Assembly (NCBI GenBank): GCA_947625015.1
Contig: CANQMR010000008.1
Span: 1 to 64,000 of the forward strand
Source of the DNA: an uncultured Lachnospiraceae bacterium
GTDB lineage: Bacteria; Bacillota; Clostridia; Lachnospirales; Lachnospiraceae
DNA length: 64,000 nt
Direction: 5' to 3'
Part shown: one piece after another, positions 977 through 59,016 of the stretch
How positions within the stretch are numbered: position 1 is the first letter of the stretch
Layout: the number at the start of each line of letters is the position of its first letter
Position numbers and translations under genes: made by a program
Notes under the pieces: model-generated
The model's input: only the letters and a program-made list of their open reading frames with translations
Databases searched by the model: none
Told to the model about the DNA's origin: nothing

Positions 977-2167
977 ATGCGAAAGATTAATTTAATCCTT
1001 TTTATTATTTTTTGTGTGCTTTTTCTTGTTCTGCCGGCGGGGTGCCAGCAGGTACCGGATGAGGTAAAGAATCGAATGGAAAATTACGGTCAAGGGGGAC
1101 AAATTAAAAAAACAGAAGTAAACTACTGCACTGTTGAAGAGTTGAGAAATGCAAGTATAGAAGAACTTGACCATGTACCGAATAATTTAAAGCTCCCGAA
1201 AAAGGTGGATTTTTCCGGAATAGAGAGTATAGAAAATCTTGTCTTGAAAAGACCGGAAGATTATGACGAAAACAAAGACAAAATTGCAGAGCTGTTTGGG
1301 GTTGAGAATCCGGAGTGGAGCTATATAGACGGAGTCGCAGAAAATGGGATAGGTAGTAACTGGTATCTATATCAGGGTGAAGATGCCTATCTGGCGGTAG
1401 ATGAAAATGGCGAGATTTCATATGTTAATGAACAAGTATATGATGAAGATGAGCGGTTGCGTACGGTTGAACGGATACATCTTAATTATGAAGCGTGTCC
1501 TGACATGACCTGTAACTTAAGCAGCGGCAAGATTCCGCTTCCGGAGATGCTTGACAAAATACAGGAATGGGTAGATGGCTGCGAGCTTCTACAGGATGAA
1601 TTTGATTATGAACTGCGGACTGTATGTGTGAAAAAGAAACCGGACCGGACAGACATTGTTGCCCTGTCGGCTCAGCGGATGTACAAGGGGGTAGGTTTGA
1701 ATTATTTTGCACTCTATGACAAAGTGGACGATTCGGATACGTTATTCTATGAGGGATCTTGGGTTGATATGAACTATGCCGAGATTGACGAACCTTATTT
1801 TTTATTTAATCAATCGCCTGTTCACATTGTTGAAGAAGAGCCTGTGGATGAGGTTATTGATTTTCAAAGCGCCGTCAATCTTGTAGAGGAGGAGCTTTCC
1901 GGGTTTTCCAAAATAAAAGTTTGTGAGATACGGGTTGAATATATGATTATTCCCCAAAAATCAGAAGATAATGATAATAATACGGAAAAAGAAGGAGCAG
2001 TATTGCATACAAAGCCGGTCTATTCTTTTTTAATTGAATTTGGAGAGGTTGATGATGCTAATGAGACATTGGGTCTTCTTGAGAGTGCTGAATATGTATA
2101 TGTCAATGTAGACATGACAGATGGCACCATTATAACAAATCTTGATAAAAGGAACTTTCATAATTAA
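977..2167 (+). CDS. tandem-array lipoprotein of unknown function, copy 2
   Basis: This 396-residue protein carries a lipoprotein signal peptide: MRK, a hydrophobic stretch, then the lipobox LPAGC with Cys23 as the acylation site. It should be tethered outside the membrane. The mature part begins QQVPDEVKNRMENYG, is acidic, and has no transmembrane segment or catalytic motif that I recognise. The start is set by AAGGTGGTG eight bases upstream. It is one of three intact paralogues in a row (with 2242 and 3523). They share nearly the whole sequence but differ in patches around residues 117-125 and 225-250, a pattern expected of proteins under diversifying selection or gene conversion. It may belong to one of the Lachnospiraceae lipoprotein DUF families. 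I cannot assign a role. Confidence 0.85.
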   Translation: MRKINLILFIIFCVLFLVLPAGCQQVPDEVKNRMENYGQGGQIKKTEVNYCTVEELRNASIEELDHVPNNLKLPKKVDFSGIESIENLVLKRPEDYDENKDKIAELFGVENPEWSYIDGVAENGIGSNWYLYQGEDAYLAVDENGEISYVNEQVYDEDERLRTVERIHLNYEACPDMTCNLSSGKIPLPEMLDKIQEWVDGCELLQDEFDYELRTVCVKKKPDRTDIVALSAQRMYKGVGLNYFALYDKVDDSDTLFYEGSWVDMNYAEIDEPYFLFNQSPVHIVEEEPVDEVIDFQSAVNLVEEELSGFSKIKVCEIRVEYMIIPQKSEDNDNNTEKEGAVLHTKPVYSFLIEFGEVDDANETLGLLESAEYVYVNVDMTDGTIITNLDKRNFHN

Positions 2168-2241
2168 AAAGGGGAAATATTTGGCATTTTTAATTAAGAT
2201 ACAGGTGTTCAAGGGAACGGTTTTGAGGTGGTGATTCATTT

Positions 2242-3450
2242 ATGCGAAAGATTAATTTGATTCTTTTTATTATTTTTTGTGTACTTTTTCTTGTTCTGCC
2301 GGTGGGGTGCCAGCAGGTGCCTGATGAGGTAAAGAACCGAATGGAAAACTACGGCGAAGGGGGACAAATTAAAAAAACAGAAGTAAGCTACTGCACTGTT
2401 GAAGAGTTGAGAAATGCAAGTATAGAAGAACTTGACCATGTACCGGGTAATCTAAAGCTCCCGAAAAAGGTGGATTTTTCCGGAATAGAGAGTATAGAAA
2501 ATCTTGTCTTGAAAAGACCGGAAGATTATGACGAAAACAAAGACAAAATTGCAGAGCTGTTTGGGGTTGAGAATCCGGAGTGGGACTTTGTAGAAGGGCG
2601 TATTTTAGATTATCCTAGCAGTAACTGGTATCTATATCAGGGTGAAGATGCCTATCTGTCGGTAGATGAAAATGGCGTGATTTCATATATTAATGAACAA
2701 GTATATGATGAAGATGAGCAACTGGATACGGTTGAGCGGATACATCTTAATCGTGAAGAGTGTCCTGACATGACCTATAATTTAAGCAGCGGCCAGATTC
2801 CGCTCCCGGAGATGCTTGAAAAAACACAGGAATGGGTAGATGGCTGTGAAATCTTACAGGATGAGTTTGATTATGAACTTCGGACTGTATGTGTGAAAAA
2901 GCGACCGGACCGGACACACCGCCTTGCCCTGGTGGTTCAGCGGATGTACAAAGGGGTAGGTTTGAATTATCTTGCAGGAAACGGAAACATTGATGGGAGC
3001 GAATATAGCACGATATCCTATGTGAACTCGGAGGTTGATTTAAACTTTGTTGAGCCTGACAAACCGTATTTTTTATTTAATTATGCGCCTGTTCACATTG
3101 TTGAAGAAGAGTCTGTGAATGAGGTTATTGATTTTCAAAGTGCAGTTAATCTTGTTGAAGAGAAGCTTTCCGGGTTTGGTAAAGTAAAAGTGTGTGAAAT
3201 ACGGATTGAATATATGATTTATGCAGAAATGTCAGAGAACGAAAATGATAATAAATATAGAGAAATATATGGAGAAGGAGCAGTATTGCATACCAAGCCG
3301 GTTTATTCTTTTTTAATTGAATTTGGAGAGGTTAATGAGGCTGAGGAGACGTTAGGTGTTTTTGAGAGTGATGAATATGTATATGTCAATGTAGACATGA
3401 CAGACGGCACCATTATAACAGATTTTGAGAGAAGGAACTTTCATAAATAA
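2242..3450 (+). CDS. tandem-array lipoprotein of unknown function, copy 3
   Basis: This 402-residue protein is the closest relative of the gene at 977. The signal peptide is almost the same and the lipobox is LPVGC with Cys23. The ribosome binding site (GAGGTGGTG) and spacer are duplicated with the gene. Against copy 2 it differs mainly in a patch near residues 116-125 (DFVEGRILDYPS), a second near 240-255 with a different acidic loop, and a short insertion near residue 350 (NKYREIYGEG). The framework around these patches is conserved, which points to variable surface loops on a constant scaffold. The function is unknown. Membrane anchoring is well supported by the lipobox. Confidence 0.85.
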   Translation: MRKINLILFIIFCVLFLVLPVGCQQVPDEVKNRMENYGEGGQIKKTEVSYCTVEELRNASIEELDHVPGNLKLPKKVDFSGIESIENLVLKRPEDYDENKDKIAELFGVENPEWDFVEGRILDYPSSNWYLYQGEDAYLSVDENGVISYINEQVYDEDEQLDTVERIHLNREECPDMTYNLSSGQIPLPEMLEKTQEWVDGCEILQDEFDYELRTVCVKKRPDRTHRLALVVQRMYKGVGLNYLAGNGNIDGSEYSTISYVNSEVDLNFVEPDKPYFLFNYAPVHIVEEESVNEVIDFQSAVNLVEEKLSGFGKVKVCEIRIEYMIYAEMSENENDNKYREIYGEGAVLHTKPVYSFLIEFGEVNEAEETLGVFESDEYVYVNVDMTDGTIITDFERRNFHK

Positions 3451-3522
3451 AAATGATAATGTTGAGAGAAGGAATAGTATTGCATACCAAGGTTATAACG
3501 AATTTTAAGGAGAGGAATTTTC
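3451..3522 (+). pseudogene. relic of a fifth lipoprotein copy, now serving as the leader of copy 4
   Basis: This short spacer is made of coding-derived pieces. Bases 3451-3491 align with an internal part of the paralogues (compare 4500-4545: AAAATGATAAT, then AGAAGGA, then AGTATTGCAT). Bases 3492-3522 align with the extreme 3' end of the genes (compare 4663-4690: ATAAC, AATTTT, GGAGAGGAATTTTCAT). The part between is deleted. The former C-terminal codons (Glu-Arg-Asn-Phe-His) now form the AAGGAGAGG ribosome binding site and the bases just before the ATG at 3523. I see this directly by comparing the copies. The deletion history is inference. Confidence 0.7.
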
Positions 3523-4695
3523 ATGATTAAAGTAAAAAGATTTGCTGTATTTTTTCTTCTTTTCCTGTTAGCGGGGTGCCAGCAGGTACCGGATGAGGTA
3601 AAGGACCGAATGGAAGACTATGGAGAAGGGGGACAAATTGAAAAAACAGAAGTAAACTACTGCACTGTTGAAGAGTTGAGAAATGCAAGCATAGAAGATA
3701 TTGACCATGTACCGGGTAATCTAAAACTCCCGAAAAAGGTGGATTTTTCCGGAATCGAGAGTATAGAAAATATTGTCTTAAAAAGACCGAAAGATTATGA
3801 CGAAAACAAAGACAAAATTGCAGAGCTGTTTGAGGTTGAGAATCCGGAGTGGAGCTATGTAGACGGTCATGATTATAATACCAGTAACTGGTATGAATAT
3901 AAGGGTGAGGACGCCTATCTGGCGGTAGATGAAAATGGCGAGATTTCATATATTAATAAACAGGTATATGATCAAGATGAACGGCTGCGAACGGTTGAGC
4001 GGATACATCTTAATCGTGAAAAATGTCCTCAGATGAAATGCAATTTGAAGAGCGGACAGATTCCGCTCTCGGAGATGCTTGAAAAAACACAGGAATGGGT
4101 AGATGCCTGTGAAATCTTACAGGATGAGTTTGATTATGAAATTCGGACTGTATGTGTGAAAAAGAAACCTGACCGGACACACAATGTTGTCCTGTTGGTT
4201 CAGCGGATGTACAAGGGGGTAGGTTTGAATTATCTTGCAGAAGGTGACTATGGGGACGATTCTGCTATGATACCCTATGAGGGTTCCAGGGTTGTTTTGG
4301 ACTTTGCTGAGCCTGACAAACCGTATTTTTTATATAATTACACGCCTGTTTATGTTGTTGAAGAAGAGCCTGTGGATGAGGTTATTGATTTTCAAAGTGC
4401 AGTTAACCTTGTAGAAGAGAAACTTTCCGGGTTTGGCAGAGTAAAAGTGTGTGAAATACGGATTGAATATATGATTTATGCAGAAAAGTCAGAAAACGAA
4501 AATGATAATAAAGATAGAGAAGGAGCAGTATTGCATGCAAAGCCAGTCTATTCTTTTTTAATTGAATTTGGAAAGGTTGATGATTCTGCGGAGAGGTCAG
4601 ATATTTTTGAGTGGGATGAATATGTATATGTCAATGTAGATATGACAGACGGCAGCGTTATAACAAATTTTGAGGAGAGGAATTTTCATAAATAA
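3523..4695 (+). CDS. tandem-array lipoprotein of unknown function, copy 4
   Basis: This 390-residue member of the array has a different signal peptide from copies 2 and 3 (MIKVKRFAVFFLLFLL) and the lipobox LLAGC with Cys19. From QQVPDEVKDRMEDYGEGG onward it follows the others. The start is fixed by AAGGAGAGG seven bases upstream, a site derived from the tail of an erased copy. Variable patches are again near residue 115-122 (SYVDGHDYNT) and 225-250. Nothing catalytic is visible. Being last, it is followed by a 319-base gap with a terminator and the next operon's promoter. I expect a surface lipoprotein of unknown role, as for its neighbours. Confidence 0.85.
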   Translation: MIKVKRFAVFFLLFLLAGCQQVPDEVKDRMEDYGEGGQIEKTEVNYCTVEELRNASIEDIDHVPGNLKLPKKVDFSGIESIENIVLKRPKDYDENKDKIAELFEVENPEWSYVDGHDYNTSNWYEYKGEDAYLAVDENGEISYINKQVYDQDERLRTVERIHLNREKCPQMKCNLKSGQIPLSEMLEKTQEWVDACEILQDEFDYEIRTVCVKKKPDRTHNVVLLVQRMYKGVGLNYLAEGDYGDDSAMIPYEGSRVVLDFAEPDKPYFLYNYTPVYVVEEEPVDEVIDFQSAVNLVEEKLSGFGRVKVCEIRIEYMIYAEKSENENDNKDREGAVLHAKPVYSFLIEFGKVDDSAERSDIFEWDEYVYVNVDMTDGSVITNFEERNFHK

Positions 4696-9662: not shown

Positions 9663-10673
9663 ATGAAAGAAAAGGGAAGAAGAGATTTCTGTATAGAATG
9701 TAGAAAAGAGACAGAGTATCTTTTGCAGAAAAAGGACATTGTAAAAAATATAAGGGATAAAGAATACACTTTTGGAATCACTGTGGCTGTCTGCGCTGAT
9801 TGTGGCGAAGAAATGAGCATTCCGGGTCTTATGGATAAGAATGTTCAGGAAATCGACGAGCAGTACAGGGAGGCAGAAGGGCTTGTATCGATTGATGATA
9901 TCGAAAGACTGATGAAAATTTATAAAATCGGAAAAGCGCCGCTGTCTCTGGCGCTTGGCTTCGGAGAGGTGACCGTATCAAGATATCTGGAAGGACAGGT
10001 GCCTTCTAAAGAGTATTCGGATATCGTCAAAGCGGTGCTTTCATCCCCGGCATACATGAAGCAGAAACTCATTGAGAACCGGAAGAAGCTGACGGAAGCG
10101 GCATACAGGAAGGCTTTTGGTGCGGCAGAAAGTATAGAATGTCTGTTTTCTGTTTCGGATAAAATGCTTAGGGTGATCGCGTATATCTTTAAAAAGCTAG
10201 AAGAGGTAACACCACTCATGTTGCAGAAGTTACTTTATTTTATCCAGGGCGTTTATTCCGCATTGTATGGAGAGCCGCTCTTTGAAGAAGATTGCAGGGC
10301 ATGGGTTCATGGCCCGGTTTATCCGGAGGTGTATGACCTTTTTAGGGACTTTAAATATAATCCGATTGATGATGCGCGGTTTGCACTTCTGGAAGGTATG
10401 GAGGATGCCCTGACGGAGAACGAGAAACGGGTGATAGACCTTGTGGTAAATACTTTCGGAATGTATGGCGGAAAAGTATTGGAGAGGATCACGCACAATG
10501 AGCTTCCATGGATGGAAGCGAGAAGAGGGTATGGCGAAGGCATTCCTTCCAGTGCGCTTTTGCCGAAAGAGAGTATTATGAATTATTATATTTTAATAAA
10601 CCAGAAATACGGCATAGGTAGCGAAGATGGCTTACGGGCTTATATTTACGATATGTTGGGTAAGACATTATGA
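9663..10673 (+). CDS. MqsA-like Zn/HTH antitoxin with C-terminal Panacea (SocA-like, DUF4065) domain
   Basis: Three parts are visible in 336 residues. The first is an N-terminal zinc ribbon with CIEC and CADC pairs, as in MqsA. The second is a helix-turn-helix near residues 85-125 (LSLALGFGEVTVSRYLEG). The third is a C-terminal Panacea domain starting near 180, with LQKLLYFIQGVYSALYG and WVHGPVYPEVYDLF. Panacea domains are known as antitoxin modules that neutralise many unrelated toxins, and the HTH part normally represses its own promoter. The start has a clear GGAGGT site. It ends a two-gene operon with the putative toxin upstream and is followed by a terminator at 10763. Confidence 0.85.
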   Translation: MKEKGRRDFCIECRKETEYLLQKKDIVKNIRDKEYTFGITVAVCADCGEEMSIPGLMDKNVQEIDEQYREAEGLVSIDDIERLMKIYKIGKAPLSLALGFGEVTVSRYLEGQVPSKEYSDIVKAVLSSPAYMKQKLIENRKKLTEAAYRKAFGAAESIECLFSVSDKMLRVIAYIFKKLEEVTPLMLQKLLYFIQGVYSALYGEPLFEEDCRAWVHGPVYPEVYDLFRDFKYNPIDDARFALLEGMEDALTENEKRVIDLVVNTFGMYGGKVLERITHNELPWMEARRGYGEGIPSSALLPKESIMNYYILINQKYGIGSEDGLRAYIYDMLGKTL

Positions 10674-54926: not shown

Positions 54927-54987
54927 GATTTTTTTGTCATTAAAAATTTTTTGTTTGGGTAATTAAAACAGGTGAGTAAAATTCAAT

Positions 54988-55058
54988 TTAAGATATGTTA
55001 AGAATTTTTTAAGAGAGTAGTTAAGAATTAAATTGTATTTTAAGAATGGTTATATAAT
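54988..55058 (+). promoter_or_regulatory. TTAAGA direct repeats and TATAAT box before the CPBP-C39 gene
   Basis: TTAAGA occurs at 54988, 54998, 55009, 55021 and 55040. The first four copies are 10, 11 and 12 bases apart, so all lie on one face of the helix. A TATAAT stands at 55053-55058 without a -35 box at normal distance. This is the layout of promoters activated by OmpR/PhoB-type regulators, whose boxes are hexamers with about five bases between (e.g. TTAACA repeats for PhoP of Bacillus). The regulator at 56838, in the same operon, is the obvious candidate, which would make the operon self-activating. The repeats are seen; the regulator link is inferred. Confidence 0.65.
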
Positions 55059-55132
55059 CAGAATAAGTTAATTAACTAAAAAATCGGAATCGGTTGATAC
55101 AGCGATAATTGTTAAAAAGGTGGAGATGTAAA

Positions 55133-56812
55133 ATGGCAGTCAGTAAAAGAAATATATTTATACATGTTATAGTAATGTATTTCGTGTTCTTGTTGGGCGA
55201 ATGGACACGAATGTTTGCATTTCATATGAATCTTACGGAACCTTATGATGAAATGATGTCAGTTCTGATTAATATCAGCATTGTTATATTGTTTACATGG
55301 TTATATGCAGTGTTTGTATTAAAAATGCCAATGAAAAAGTTTATGATTTGTGGTCCATTGCCGAAGTTTAAATGGTGTGTGGTTGCAGTGCTTATTCCCA
55401 GTGCTATTTGCCTTTTTTATATATTTTTCTTAGATGGCACATTACAAAAAAACATCTTAAGCCATACAGACTTGGTATATATTTATTCTTATACTATTTT
55501 ACGGACAGGTGTGTTATCTGGAATAGTAGAAGAAATTATTTTTCGCGGAATGATTATGAATATTTTGGATGGTTTTTTTTCCAGAAAATGGGCAATTTTT
55601 ATCTCAGCTTTTCTGTTTGCCTCTATTCACTTAGAGAATATGGAGCTTTCACATATTACAGATACAATTATGATGCTGATATCTATTACAATAGCGGGCA
55701 TTGCTCTTTCTGCGGTGGCTTATGAAACGGGTTCCATATGGTCTGGCGTTATAATACATGGAATGTACAATATTATTACTTCCGGACAAATTCTGGAAAT
55801 AGCAACAGAGCATAATTTTTTGACAATTTGGAATTATACGCCTGATACAAGAAATAAGTTATTTACAGGTGGAGATTATGGTATAACAGCAGGTATTCCT
55901 ACGGTTATTGGTTTTTTAATTATTATAGTGATAGCTAAAAAGGGATTGCAAGAAAAAAATAAGACAGCAATAGAAAAAGAACAATATGTGTCTGCTGCAA
56001 AGAAAAATATGCAATATATATTTTGTGTGATTTTGCTGATTATAGTATTTTGTTATGGGATAGTTTTGAAAAACCACTCCCTTAATATGTGTGTAAGTGA
56101 TGAAATAGAAGAGACCGTACAGGCTTTTGCATTAAATGAAAGTGATAAAGATGTTATACGAAAAAGCAGGCGTTATTGTGCTATTCTTAAACAACGGGAC
56201 GCCTATCCGACAAGAATGATAGAGGATTTAGAACGAAATCCTGAAATGTTAGATTTTGTAGAGCAATATGGAAAGCAAACGAAACTGCTTTCCGAAGAAT
56301 TTACACAGACTGAAAAGGAAACGGAATTTCCATTACTGATACAATGGGACAGCAGATGGGGATATAAACCATATGGAAATAGTATAATCGGGCTGTCAGG
56401 CTGTGGGCCTACCTGTTTGTCTATGGTTCTCTTTGCTTTAACAAGGAATCCACAATTAACACCGGATTTTATTGCGGGTTATAGCATGGACAAGGGATAT
56501 TATATTGAGGGTGTTGGAACATCATGGGACTTAATGACAGATATTGCAGAATATTATGGCGTTACAGTGGAGAATATAGAGGTTTTGGCAGAAGATGAGA
56601 TGAAAAAGTATCTTTCGGAGGGAGCGGTGCTGATTTGTTCGATGGGACCTGGGGATTTTACAGATCAAGGACACTTTATTGTAATTAGAGGTTATAATAA
56701 AAACGGGTTTATAGTGAACGATCCTTTCAGCTATACAAACAGTTCGCACGAATGGAGTTATGAAAAATTAATTCCTCAAATTTGCCAAACCTGGATTTAT
56801 ACGCTAGAATAG
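55133..56812 (+). CDS. fusion of a CPBP intramembrane protease and a C39-type cysteine peptidase
   Basis: The ATG at 55133 follows AGGTGGAG and gives 559 residues. Residues 1-285 hold about eight membrane helices and the CPBP (Abi) motifs: SGIVEEIIFRGM (EExxxR near 133), FLFASIHLENM (FxxxH near 164) and WSGVIIHGMYN (HxxxN near 209). One more helix at about 293-315 leads to a soluble C-terminal half. There, LIQWDSRWGY, GLSGCGPTCLSMVLFA (nucleophile Cys near 423), GHFIVIRGYNKNG (His) and VNDPF (Asp/Asn) are the marks of a C39-family papain-like peptidase, probably outside the cell. CPBP proteins and C39 peptidases both occur in bacteriocin systems, but I do not know this fusion. An OmpR two-component system follows. 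Confidence 0.85.
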   Translation: MAVSKRNIFIHVIVMYFVFLLGEWTRMFAFHMNLTEPYDEMMSVLINISIVILFTWLYAVFVLKMPMKKFMICGPLPKFKWCVVAVLIPSAICLFYIFFLDGTLQKNILSHTDLVYIYSYTILRTGVLSGIVEEIIFRGMIMNILDGFFSRKWAIFISAFLFASIHLENMELSHITDTIMMLISITIAGIALSAVAYETGSIWSGVIIHGMYNIITSGQILEIATEHNFLTIWNYTPDTRNKLFTGGDYGITAGIPTVIGFLIIIVIAKKGLQEKNKTAIEKEQYVSAAKKNMQYIFCVILLIIVFCYGIVLKNHSLNMCVSDEIEETVQAFALNESDKDVIRKSRRYCAILKQRDAYPTRMIEDLERNPEMLDFVEQYGKQTKLLSEEFTQTEKETEFPLLIQWDSRWGYKPYGNSIIGLSGCGPTCLSMVLFALTRNPQLTPDFIAGYSMDKGYYIEGVGTSWDLMTDIAEYYGVTVENIEVLAEDEMKKYLSEGAVLICSMGPGDFTDQGHFIVIRGYNKNGFIVNDPFSYTNSSHEWSYEKLIPQICQTWIYTLE

Positions 56813-56837
56813 TTGCAGAAAGAAGGTGAAGACAGAA

Positions 56838-57554
56838 ATGGAGCAAACCGAAATTTTAATAATCGAAGACGATGCCGATATCCGGGAGGGGATACGAATT
56901 CTTTTGAGCAGTGAGGGTTATCGTATAACGGAAGCATCTAATGGAATGGAGGGCTTGAAACTTTTATCTGATGATATAGATTTAGTTATTTTAGACATAA
57001 TGATGCCGGGAATTTCAGGTTTGCGTGTTTGTGAGGAAATACGAAAAATATCTTATGTTCCGGTTCTGTTTCTAACTGCAAAAGCACAGGAATCCGATAA
57101 ATTGATTGGCTTGATGGCTGGTGGTGATGATTATTTAATAAAACCATTTTCATATGCAGAATTATTGGGACGAGTAACATCTCTGCTGCGCAGATATCAG
57201 GTATATGGAGGAATGAAGGGAGTGAGCAGTCCCTCCAATGAGTGGGTAGAATATCTTGATATTCGCCTGAATAAATCAAACAACGAAGTTATCAAAAAGG
57301 ACGCAGATTTAGAGCTTACAGATATTGAATACAAAATTCTTCGATTACTCATGGAAAATCCTAAAAAAATTTTTTCCATTCAAAATCTTTATGAAAGCGT
57401 ATGGGAGGAACCATTTATATATTCATCTGGTAATACGGTTATGGTTCATATTCGAAAACTGCGTTTAAAGATTGAGGATAATCCTGATAATCCTGATTAC
57501 ATTCAAACGGTTTGGGGAAAGGGGTATCGACTTGGTAATGAAACAAAAAAATAA
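56838..57554 (+). CDS. OmpR-family response regulator
   Basis: The ATG at 56838 (MEQTEILIIEDDADI) is better spaced from AAGAAGGTG than the GTG at 56826, giving 238 residues. The receiver has the acidic pair EDD, phospho-acceptor Asp in DLVILDIMMPGISG, Thr in FLTAKAQESD and Lys in DYLIKPFSYAEL. The C-terminal winged helix lies at about 145-236 (LELTDIEYKILRLLMENPKK, YIQTVWGKGYRL). It lies 25 bases after the protease gene and overlaps the kinase gene by 17. The TTAAGA repeats at 54988 are its likely target. Confidence 0.93.
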   Translation: MEQTEILIIEDDADIREGIRILLSSEGYRITEASNGMEGLKLLSDDIDLVILDIMMPGISGLRVCEEIRKISYVPVLFLTAKAQESDKLIGLMAGGDDYLIKPFSYAELLGRVTSLLRRYQVYGGMKGVSSPSNEWVEYLDIRLNKSNNEVIKKDADLELTDIEYKILRLLMENPKKIFSIQNLYESVWEEPFIYSSGNTVMVHIRKLRLKIEDNPDNPDYIQTVWGKGYRLGNETKK

Positions 57555-58896
57555 ACCGATTTTTTGTGGATTTTTTAAGGGAAAGTATAGAAAAAGTTTA
57601 ACTGGAGAGATGATGTTACTGCTTTGCAAATCAATGGTTATCGCAGTTTTTTTCTTTGCTTTATTCTATTTGGGAAGTAAGACAATATTAGATTTCTATT
57701 TTGAAGACTCAGATTATTTAAAACGGGTTGAAAACAAACGGATAGAAGAATTTCAGAAGTATATTACCCAAAATAATATTTCAACAAAAGATACTACATT
57801 ATTAACAGATTGGATTCATGAACGGAATATTCCTCTTGTTACCATATCAAGAAAGCGCGAATTATTATATGATAGTACATATATGGCAAGAACACCGATT
57901 GGAAAAACAGATGCGGATTACCTTCACAAGTCATGGCAATATTTTCACACTGTCGAATTTGCAGATGGGACCGCTGATGTTTTGATTTATGAGGGTTACG
58001 AAGAAAAATATTATATTTCAGTTCTTGTACTGTCCATTCTGTTAAGTGTGGTGGTAATGTTGATTATATTTGTACAAGGTATGAAAAAAAGAGTTATTTA
58101 TATTAAGGCATTGAAAGAAGAAATTGACATGATTGGCGGAGGCTGTCTTACACATTCGATTGTGATACAGGGTGAAGATGAGTTGGCCGGACTTGCAGAT
58201 GGATTAAACAAAATGCGAATGTCTTTATTAGAGACACAGGAAATGGAAGAAAAATTGAGGATTGCAGAAGAAGAACTCGTTACAGGAATGTCGCATGATT
58301 TACGAACGCCGCTTACCGGTTTGATGACATATTTGGAGATTATGCGAAAGCAAGATGAAAACGGGGAAAAGATTGAAAGAAAATATATAGAAAAATCTTT
58401 TGATAAAGCAGTTCAAATGCGAACTCTGTCAAATCAAATGTTTGAGTATTTCCTTGCAAAACGAGAACAAAATATTTTATTAAACCCGCCGGTAGATTGG
58501 CAATCCGTTACCGGGGACTATCTCTCTGAATTTGTTTGTTCCATGCAGAAAGCAGGGCTTGTGGTAGAATATAAAAATCCGGGAGATGTTTGTGCTAAAA
58601 TTGCAATCAATGATGATTTCTGGGGAAGAATATTTGATAATATTATTTCTAATTTTGAAAAATATGCCGATCCGTCTATTCCGGTTAAGCTGAATATTTT
58701 ATTTGAAGAAAAATGGTTTGGAATAAGAATAGAAAATAAAATTATAGATGACTGGAAAGAAAAAAGGGGAAATAACATTGGAATGAAAAATGTTTGTTTT
58801 ATGATGAAAAAGATGAACGGACAATGTGAGACGCAAATACATGATGGTAAATATATTGTAATATTATGGCTGCCCATAAAGAGTGAGATTATATGA
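57538..58896 (+). CDS. sensor histidine kinase with reduced ATPase domain
   Basis: I take the ATG at 57538 (MKQKNKPIFCGFFKG), inside the end of the regulator gene, giving 452 residues. Two membrane helices (about 30-52 and 161-180) enclose an outer domain of about 105 residues. A HAMP-like stretch and then EELVTGMSHDLRTPLTGLMT with the phosphorylated His follow. The ATPase domain has the N box (IFDNIISNFEKYAD), but the DxGxG region reads ENKIIDDWKEKRGNN and the last glycine box only NIGMKN. The ATP lid is therefore shortened, as in several antimicrobial-peptide-sensing kinases. It should act on the regulator before it. Confidence 0.88.
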   Translation: MKQKNKPIFCGFFKGKYRKSLTGEMMLLLCKSMVIAVFFFALFYLGSKTILDFYFEDSDYLKRVENKRIEEFQKYITQNNISTKDTTLLTDWIHERNIPLVTISRKRELLYDSTYMARTPIGKTDADYLHKSWQYFHTVEFADGTADVLIYEGYEEKYYISVLVLSILLSVVVMLIIFVQGMKKRVIYIKALKEEIDMIGGGCLTHSIVIQGEDELAGLADGLNKMRMSLLETQEMEEKLRIAEEELVTGMSHDLRTPLTGLMTYLEIMRKQDENGEKIERKYIEKSFDKAVQMRTLSNQMFEYFLAKREQNILLNPPVDWQSVTGDYLSEFVCSMQKAGLVVEYKNPGDVCAKIAINDDFWGRIFDNIISNFEKYADPSIPVKLNILFEEKWFGIRIENKIIDDWKEKRGNNIGMKNVCFMMKKMNGQCETQIHDGKYIVILWLPIKSEII

Positions 58897-59016
58897 TTGC
58901 CATATATTTTTTATACAAAATAAGACTATAATAAAAAAATTGCTAGGTAAAACGGGTATTTTATGTTATACTATCATCTGGAGTATAATTGTTATTAGAA
59001 AAGAAAGGGTGATTGA

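Follow-up and report, generated by a model that had tools for sequence, protein, structure and literature searches.

What is the role of a membrane protease of the CPBP family when it is encoded as one protein with a C39-type cysteine peptidase, next to a two-component system of its own? The question is raised by positions 54988..58896 of a 64,000-nucleotide stretch (hereafter the window) of contig CANQMR010000008.1 from an uncultured Lachnospiraceae bacterium, in which a gene for such a fusion is followed by genes for a response regulator and a sensor histidine kinase. Our answer is a tentative one: gut Firmicutes may have a membrane system, not described so far, that induces itself and is made up of the CPBP module, the C39-like hydrolase, the regulator and a short-lid kinase. 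Its intramembrane protease module would hold an outward-facing cysteine hydrolase, switch it and report on it, the window carrying a version with fused effectors. The features of the locus are as follows.

54934..58929, no strand: block of ~4.0 kb, absent from sister genome G025 (megablast comparison)
54988..55045, + strand: promoter box, TTAAG(A) at 54988, 54998, 55009, 55021 and 55040
55133..56812, + strand: CPBP-C39 fusion gene (open reading frame, Pfam matches)
55133..55978, + strand: CPBP/Rce1-like membrane module with E133, E134, R138 / H166 / H209, N213 (Pfam, alignment, structure model)
55953..55959, + strand: run of seven A (A7) at the boundary between the halves; it may have caused the fusion, real or apparent
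56012..56068, + strand: predicted transmembrane anchor of the C39 half, residues 294-312, with a lysine-rich loop before it (hydropathy)
56189..56809, + strand: C39_2-like peptidase half, probably outward, with Q404, C424, H514 and N529/D530 (Pfam, alignment, hydropathy)
56826..57554, + strand: OmpR/VanR-type response regulator, likely start ATG 56838 (Pfam, NCBIfam, open reading frame)
57538..58896, + strand: sensor histidine kinase with two transmembrane helices, an outer loop of ~116 residues, a HAMP-like region, HisKA and a short ATP lid (Pfam, hydropathy, alignment)

The fusion is a single open reading frame (ORF) that runs without interruption from 55109 (TTG) or 55133 (ATG) to 56812. 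ATG 55133 is the better start; it is preceded by a ribosome-binding site (GGTGGAG) and gives a protein of 559 amino acids (aa), compared with 567 aa from TTG 55109, and residues are counted from this methionine. A preliminary description of the locus had called a CPBP and a C39 domain, and both calls were borne out by profile search: PF02517 (Rce1-like) matched at 5.2e-20 (72 bits; cut-off 22.4) and PF13529 (Peptidase_C39_2) at 8.8e-17 (62.4 bits; cut-off 24). PF03412 (Peptidase_C39) was also above its cut-off (25.9 vs 22), PF13529 being the better match. Both active-site sets had been described as intact, and all of their residues were found. E133/E134/R138 (EExxxR), F162/H166 (FxxxH) and H209/N213 (HxxxN) were invariant in a five-row CPBP alignment, and Q404, C424, H514 and N529/D530 were present in the C39 alignment; we take the Cys, His and Asn/Asp of the latter set to be catalytic and the Gln to be the oxyanion residue. 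Hydropathy gave the order CPBP helices, lysine-rich loop, one more helix (residues 294-312) and C39 tail. From hydropathy and the positive-inside rule, the C39 half probably faces outside, in agreement with its earlier placement on the outer face. It is joined to the CPBP module and not to an ABC transporter, as would be typical of bacteriocin exporters.

The catalytic Cys was kept in every row of the C39 alignment except one, L003. That row is the host's second anchored C39 paralog (L003:1339-2523; G000:C27), in which Ser replaces the catalytic Cys (SGSGPTC) and which may be a pseudoenzyme. L009, a relative of this paralog, retains Cys.

Because the A7 run marks the point where the two halves meet, a one-base miscall in it could make two genes appear as one. 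With one base fewer, the CPBP frame would end and the C39 frame would be left without a good start. An error of sequencing or assembly that affected one base of 55953-55959 could thus have produced the single ORF from what are truly two overlapping or adjacent genes, as they are in the nearest relative, Blautia caecimuris; the fusion was found in no other genome searched, which also points this way. The homopolymer survey argues against an error. In 384 kb of the assembly there were 173 homopolymers of at least 7 nucleotides, 95 of them inside long ORFs (junction run counted) and the rest outside ORFs or near their ends; three fitted the rule for a possible break, and the two that were inspected proved to be ordinary overlaps of neighbouring genes. 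The C39 part, if split off, would moreover have by eye a GTG or a later ATG start alone, with no ribosome-binding site. We therefore regard an error as quite improbable. The simplest and most likely origin of the fusion is a frameshift between two overlapping genes, like the overlap in B. caecimuris.

Of 26 genus genomes, the host alone had a single match covering both halves. No other fusion turned up when the search was widened to family, order and class, with samples of 299, 392 and 391 genomes that overlapped; the E cut-offs of 1e-60 to 1e-62 were strict enough for a very divergent fusion to be missed. Among the best 80 loci listed from the named genome collection, one match spans both halves, that of B. 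caecimuris DSM 29492 (L114). Gene neighbours were viewed in this locus and in 19 others of the 80. In L114, CPBP (39% identical) and C39 (48%) are separate genes with a 38-nucleotide overlap, followed by regulator and kinase (41%); as deposited, the regulator (L114:7622-8320) has a frameshift in the DNA-binding domain, which may reflect decay or a sequence error. In G1030 (L214) the order is SH3-CPBP-regulator-kinase-C39, all separate, with identities to the window of 35% (CPBP), 42% (C39), 63% (regulator) and 37% (kinase). In G1096 (L267) it is SH3-regulator-CPBP-kinase, the CPBP being 27% identical to that of the window and 34% to that of G1030. Two operons thus include an SH3 protein of the wall-binding type (Pfam SH3_3 in L214; 38% identity in L267). 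In L063:1790-3550 and L115:2081-3791, CPBP is directly followed by a kinase without much of its sensor part; these loci look like deletions, and either they have decayed or the kinase relies on CPBP for sensing. The domain pair that the preliminary description proposed to look for elsewhere therefore occurs as separate genes in B. caecimuris and G1030, but as a fusion in no other genome searched. Because related bacteria keep both as separate neighbours, CPBP and C39 probably work together.

Trees were made for the window, L114, L214, L063 and L115 (G1096 left out). The five CPBPs formed one clade (100/100), and the five kinases formed one clade together with those of L090 and L091 (100/99), the window kinase branching outside the other six (92/88). 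The window C39 grouped weakly with the B. caecimuris C39 and a lone C39, L059 (91/87). From the gene orders of the relatives and these trees, CPBP-regulator-kinase looks like the core of the system and C39 like a repeated partner.

The regulator (56826-57554) had Response_reg and Trans_reg_C matches, both above cut-off. In the kinase (about 57538-58896), HisKA was above cut-off, HATPase_c_5 exactly at cut-off and HAMP below it. Neither protein reached the NCBIfam cut-offs for VanR (215.6 vs 350 bits) or VanS (91.4 vs 400 bits). The shortened ATP lid seen earlier in the kinase is real: each of the ten aligned kinases of the window type, that of the window among them, had a 19-column gap, whereas two VanS-like kinases had a full lid. 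Since all ten share it, the short lid is, as judged from this alignment, a family trait rather than a defect.

The region upstream of the fusion gene suggests that the operon controls itself. The stretch singled out for study starts exactly at the first TTAAG repeat (54988), and a TATAAT -10 element lies downstream of the repeats at about 55053. To count as a box, a site had to have TTAAG at three or more of the four offsets 0, 10, 22 and 32 (+/-1); this definition was drawn up after the sites had been inspected, and the counts that follow are therefore descriptive. The box occurred once in the window, with 4/4 repeats; when the local intergenic sequence was shuffled 2000 times, 6 of the shuffles contained it. 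Near relatives of the kinase there were 10 hits at 8 places (two of them scored on both strands) in 7 of 19 loci (281 kb), compared with one hit in all from 15 shuffle rounds. Seven of the eight places precede a gene for a regulator, ligase, exporter or small exported protein. The 16 loci with C39 only (211 kb) gave no hits, and 15 shuffle rounds of them gave 2. The box was also present at the operons of B. caecimuris and G1030, and a degenerate form was seen by eye in G1096. In the host genome, two spacing patterns recovered the window promoter and two other places, one pattern having 1 match in the control. The idea that the operon is self-activating, already put forward in the preliminary description, is thus well supported at the level of sequence by four phased TTAAG repeats with a TATAAT and by the recurrence of the box near this kinase family well above shuffled levels.

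At L090:9243-10196 (G167), two small exported-looking proteins stand behind a TTAAG box, near the kinase that scored second to the window's own.

Genes for envelope functions accompany the kinase family. A Dlt-like set, comprising an AMP ligase, a pyridoxal phosphate (PLP) decarboxylase, an MBOAT protein and a DltD-like protein, was Pfam-tested in L096 and looked alike by eye in L097, L098, L100, L101 and L103; a partial set was seen by eye in L092, L099, L102 and L104. A PLP enzyme is unusual in a wall-acylation operon. MacB, FtsX or HlyD genes lie near the kinase in four loci (L091, L093, L095 and L106; Pfam-tested), and the other 5 of the 19 kinase loci had by eye neither a Dlt-like nor an exporter set.

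In the predicted structure, the CPBP half was modelled well (pLDDT blocks of 65-96, mostly >80). The first-ranked Foldseek match was 6u0o_A, from a SagB-SpdC entry, a weak match with the chain not named (E 2.9e-3; TM-score by target 0.54). It was followed by C39-like 3erv, the pseudomurein endoisopeptidase PeiR and ComA (3k8u), with Rce1 (4cad) sixth. A search of the PDB by single sequence found little, and the C39 profile gave weak PeiR matches plus chance hits.

By analogy, SpdC-SagB of Staphylococcus aureus (SpdC = LyrA) appears to be the closest mechanistic precedent. SpdC scaffolds SagB for the cutting of nascent wall (PMC10581084; also PMC12214887; statements on these and all papers cited below refer to excerpts of their text), spdC is controlled by WalKR, and SpdC binds kinases (PMC5854430). 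As in the window, a CPBP-type membrane protein is paired with an anchored outer hydrolase and linked to a two-component system. SagB is a glucosaminidase, however, whereas the partner here is a C39-like cysteine peptidase; SpdC and SagB have separate genes, whereas one fused gene is found here, and the fold match is weak. SpdC also works without its CAAX catalytic residues (PMC10482373), whereas the CPBP residues are conserved in the window. Abx1 of group B Streptococcus, which binds the kinase CovS, likewise ties a CPBP protein to a histidine kinase, although no C39 half is described for it in the excerpted text (PMC3578759). Peptidase_C39_2 is known as a lysin catalytic domain, in one survey solely from phages of Gram-positive hosts (PMC8223927), and occurs in gut-phage endolysins (PMC13284279). 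Anchored C39 proteins in Lachnospiraceae-type genomes stand near other two-component systems: their C39 halves are 41-55% identical to that of the window over the matched part, and 10 of 16 loci have a regulator and a kinase no more than two genes away (two of the ten being sister copies). Unlike the window, these 16 loci had no CPBP by BLAST and no TTAAG box, and the two kinases aligned had a full ATP lid. Of the many CPBP proteins, few have been examined experimentally (PMC10482373). A CPBP/CAAX-C39 fusion was not found in the open-licence literature, including the excerpt of PMC3482391, such absence being weak evidence. The component families are known, and their combination appears to be new.

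Because of the envelope-gene company, the SH3 partners, the fold matches and the SpdC-SagB and lysin precedents, we tentatively favour a self-inducing envelope-stress operon with an outer hydrolase held by CPBP. The kinase would respond to disturbances on the outer side of the membrane, and the phosphorylated regulator would bind the four phased TTAAG repeats and turn on the whole operon. The CPBP module would hold and orient, and may gate, the anchored C39-like cysteine hydrolase on the outer face, as SpdC does with SagB; it may also feed back on the kinase. Likely substrates would be cell-wall cross-bridges or peptides that reach the wall, and the hydrolase perhaps trims or protects the wall. 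Hydrolysis of the wall is no less likely than the cutting of peptides. The fused form would go back to an ancestral CPBP/C39/regulator/kinase operon in which a frameshift joined two genes that overlapped.

Several results weigh against this proposal. Much of the C39 half was modelled poorly. No Foldseek match had E <= 1e-3, chain A of 6u0o is presumably SpdC (the Foldseek listing gives no chain identity), and a profile of the CPBP clade recovered neither the SpdC nor the Rce1 chain from PDB sequences. The eighth place with a TTAAG box is inside the kinase gene of L108. C39 is missing from G1096 and from the rearranged loci L063 and L115. No CPBP lies close to the L090 and L091 kinases, yet these are nearer the other CPBP-linked kinases than the window kinase is. 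In the C39 tree, the C39 of G1030 grouped elsewhere (100/99) as another subtype; C39 may have joined the system on more than one occasion. The CPBP catalytic residues conserved in five rows would be less expected in a pure scaffold than in a working protease, and the Dlt-like and exporter neighbours point to antimicrobial-peptide defence as well.

The recent history of the locus also bears on peptide defence. In sister genome G025, purB lies next to citrate synthase; the flanks are 97.7-98.4% identical in megablast segments, and none of the block is homologous. Since the 98%-identical sister has an empty site, the block was probably gained recently, a direction that we infer. Its low GC content (31-37% vs about 42-52% on both sides) agrees with a recent gain, and transfer had earlier been suggested from this AT-richness. 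There was no transposase ORF in the block and, by eye, no clear duplication, and no mobile element that could have carried the block was seen. We surveyed 16 fetched loci (from G025 and from 15 other genomes of the genus in which citrate synthase was matched). In 14 of them both genes were present, 20-400 bp apart in 12 and separated by another insert of ~4 kb in 2; two loci held citrate synthase only. The fusion and the window kinase were found in none of the 16, and the purB-citrate synthase spacing led us to reject the view that the block has long belonged to the core of the genus. A different ~4-kb set, ABC-2 plus ABC_transp_aux, lies between the two genes in L250:2537-6519 and L252:2600-6365 (two L250 proteins were Pfam-tested), and this gap may be prone to insertions. 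We likewise rejected the idea of a phage or plasmid unit: the halves matched alone in both collections, and the fusion was in no viral contig. Viral scans with C39 queries found little, with one C39 locus.

The main rival explanation is peptide degradation and immunity. The outward C39 half would destroy antimicrobial peptides or bacteriocins, the CPBP half would give immunity, and the peptides would induce the operon through the two-component system. Both families have bacteriocin roles, SkkI for CPBP (PMC10482373) and leader cutting for C39 (PMC3482391); the kinase family adjoins Dlt-like and MacB-type genes, the active sites of both halves are conserved, and the block is probably a recent gain. 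The C39 domains of bacteriocin ABC exporters (ComA, PCAT) share the papain-like set, the 3k8u fold match and a passing PF03412 score with the window protein, but the latter has no ABC transporter, is anchored and probably outward, and matches Peptidase_C39_2 better. As the preliminary description had noted, the block has no precursor or transporter gene among ORFs of at least 80 aa, and none of the short ORFs (at least 20 aa) of the two intergenic stretches looked precursor-like. By eye, the operons of the window, L114, L214 and L267 had no bacteriocin or transporter gene among ORFs of at least 80-110 aa, though shorter precursors could be missed outside the window. The SH3 partner protein also argues against peptide defence. 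We consider this explanation possible but rather unlikely.

A cut by C39 followed by an intramembrane cut by CPBP could also process a membrane regulator or a secreted signal peptide and so feed the kinase. The precedent is MroQ of the S. aureus agr system, also a CPBP protease beside a peptide-signalling two-component locus; its peptide substrate AgrD is known, whereas a counterpart was not found here, and the excerpt describes no C39 half for it (PMC10482373). The intact active sites fit such two-step signalling, as does the CPBP of G1096, which stays with the kinase though C39 is absent. However, C39 and CPBP are not always together, and by eye the ORFs listed for the four operons (short ORFs for the window only) included no gene for an anti-sigma factor or a signal peptide. 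The preliminary description had suggested a sensor-effector that cuts peptides at two levels, with a substrate that may be foreign; both ideas are conjectural. The halves are separate genes in the relatives, CPBP accompanies the kinase of G1096 without C39, and the SpdC scaffold, according to the excerpt, needs no CAAX catalysis (PMC10482373). Two-step signalling is in our view distinctly unlikely. We thus rank a self-inducing envelope-stress operon above peptide defence, two-step signalling and a sequence artefact, in that order.

The natural CPBP-hydrolase fusion, its unfused relatives and the dedicated two-component system suggest that CPBP, anchored hydrolase and kinase can act as one machine. 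If so, the type of link seen in SpdC-SagB/WalK could be tested in a compact, self-contained system.

Elsewhere in the window, three tandem lipoprotein-like ORFs (977-4695; 396, 402 and 390 aa) have GCQQVPDEV in common near the start. The first two start almost alike, and the first and third had no Pfam match. A 336-aa protein at 9663-10673, near an ABC-type set, contains a SocA/Panacea antitoxin-like domain (PF13274).

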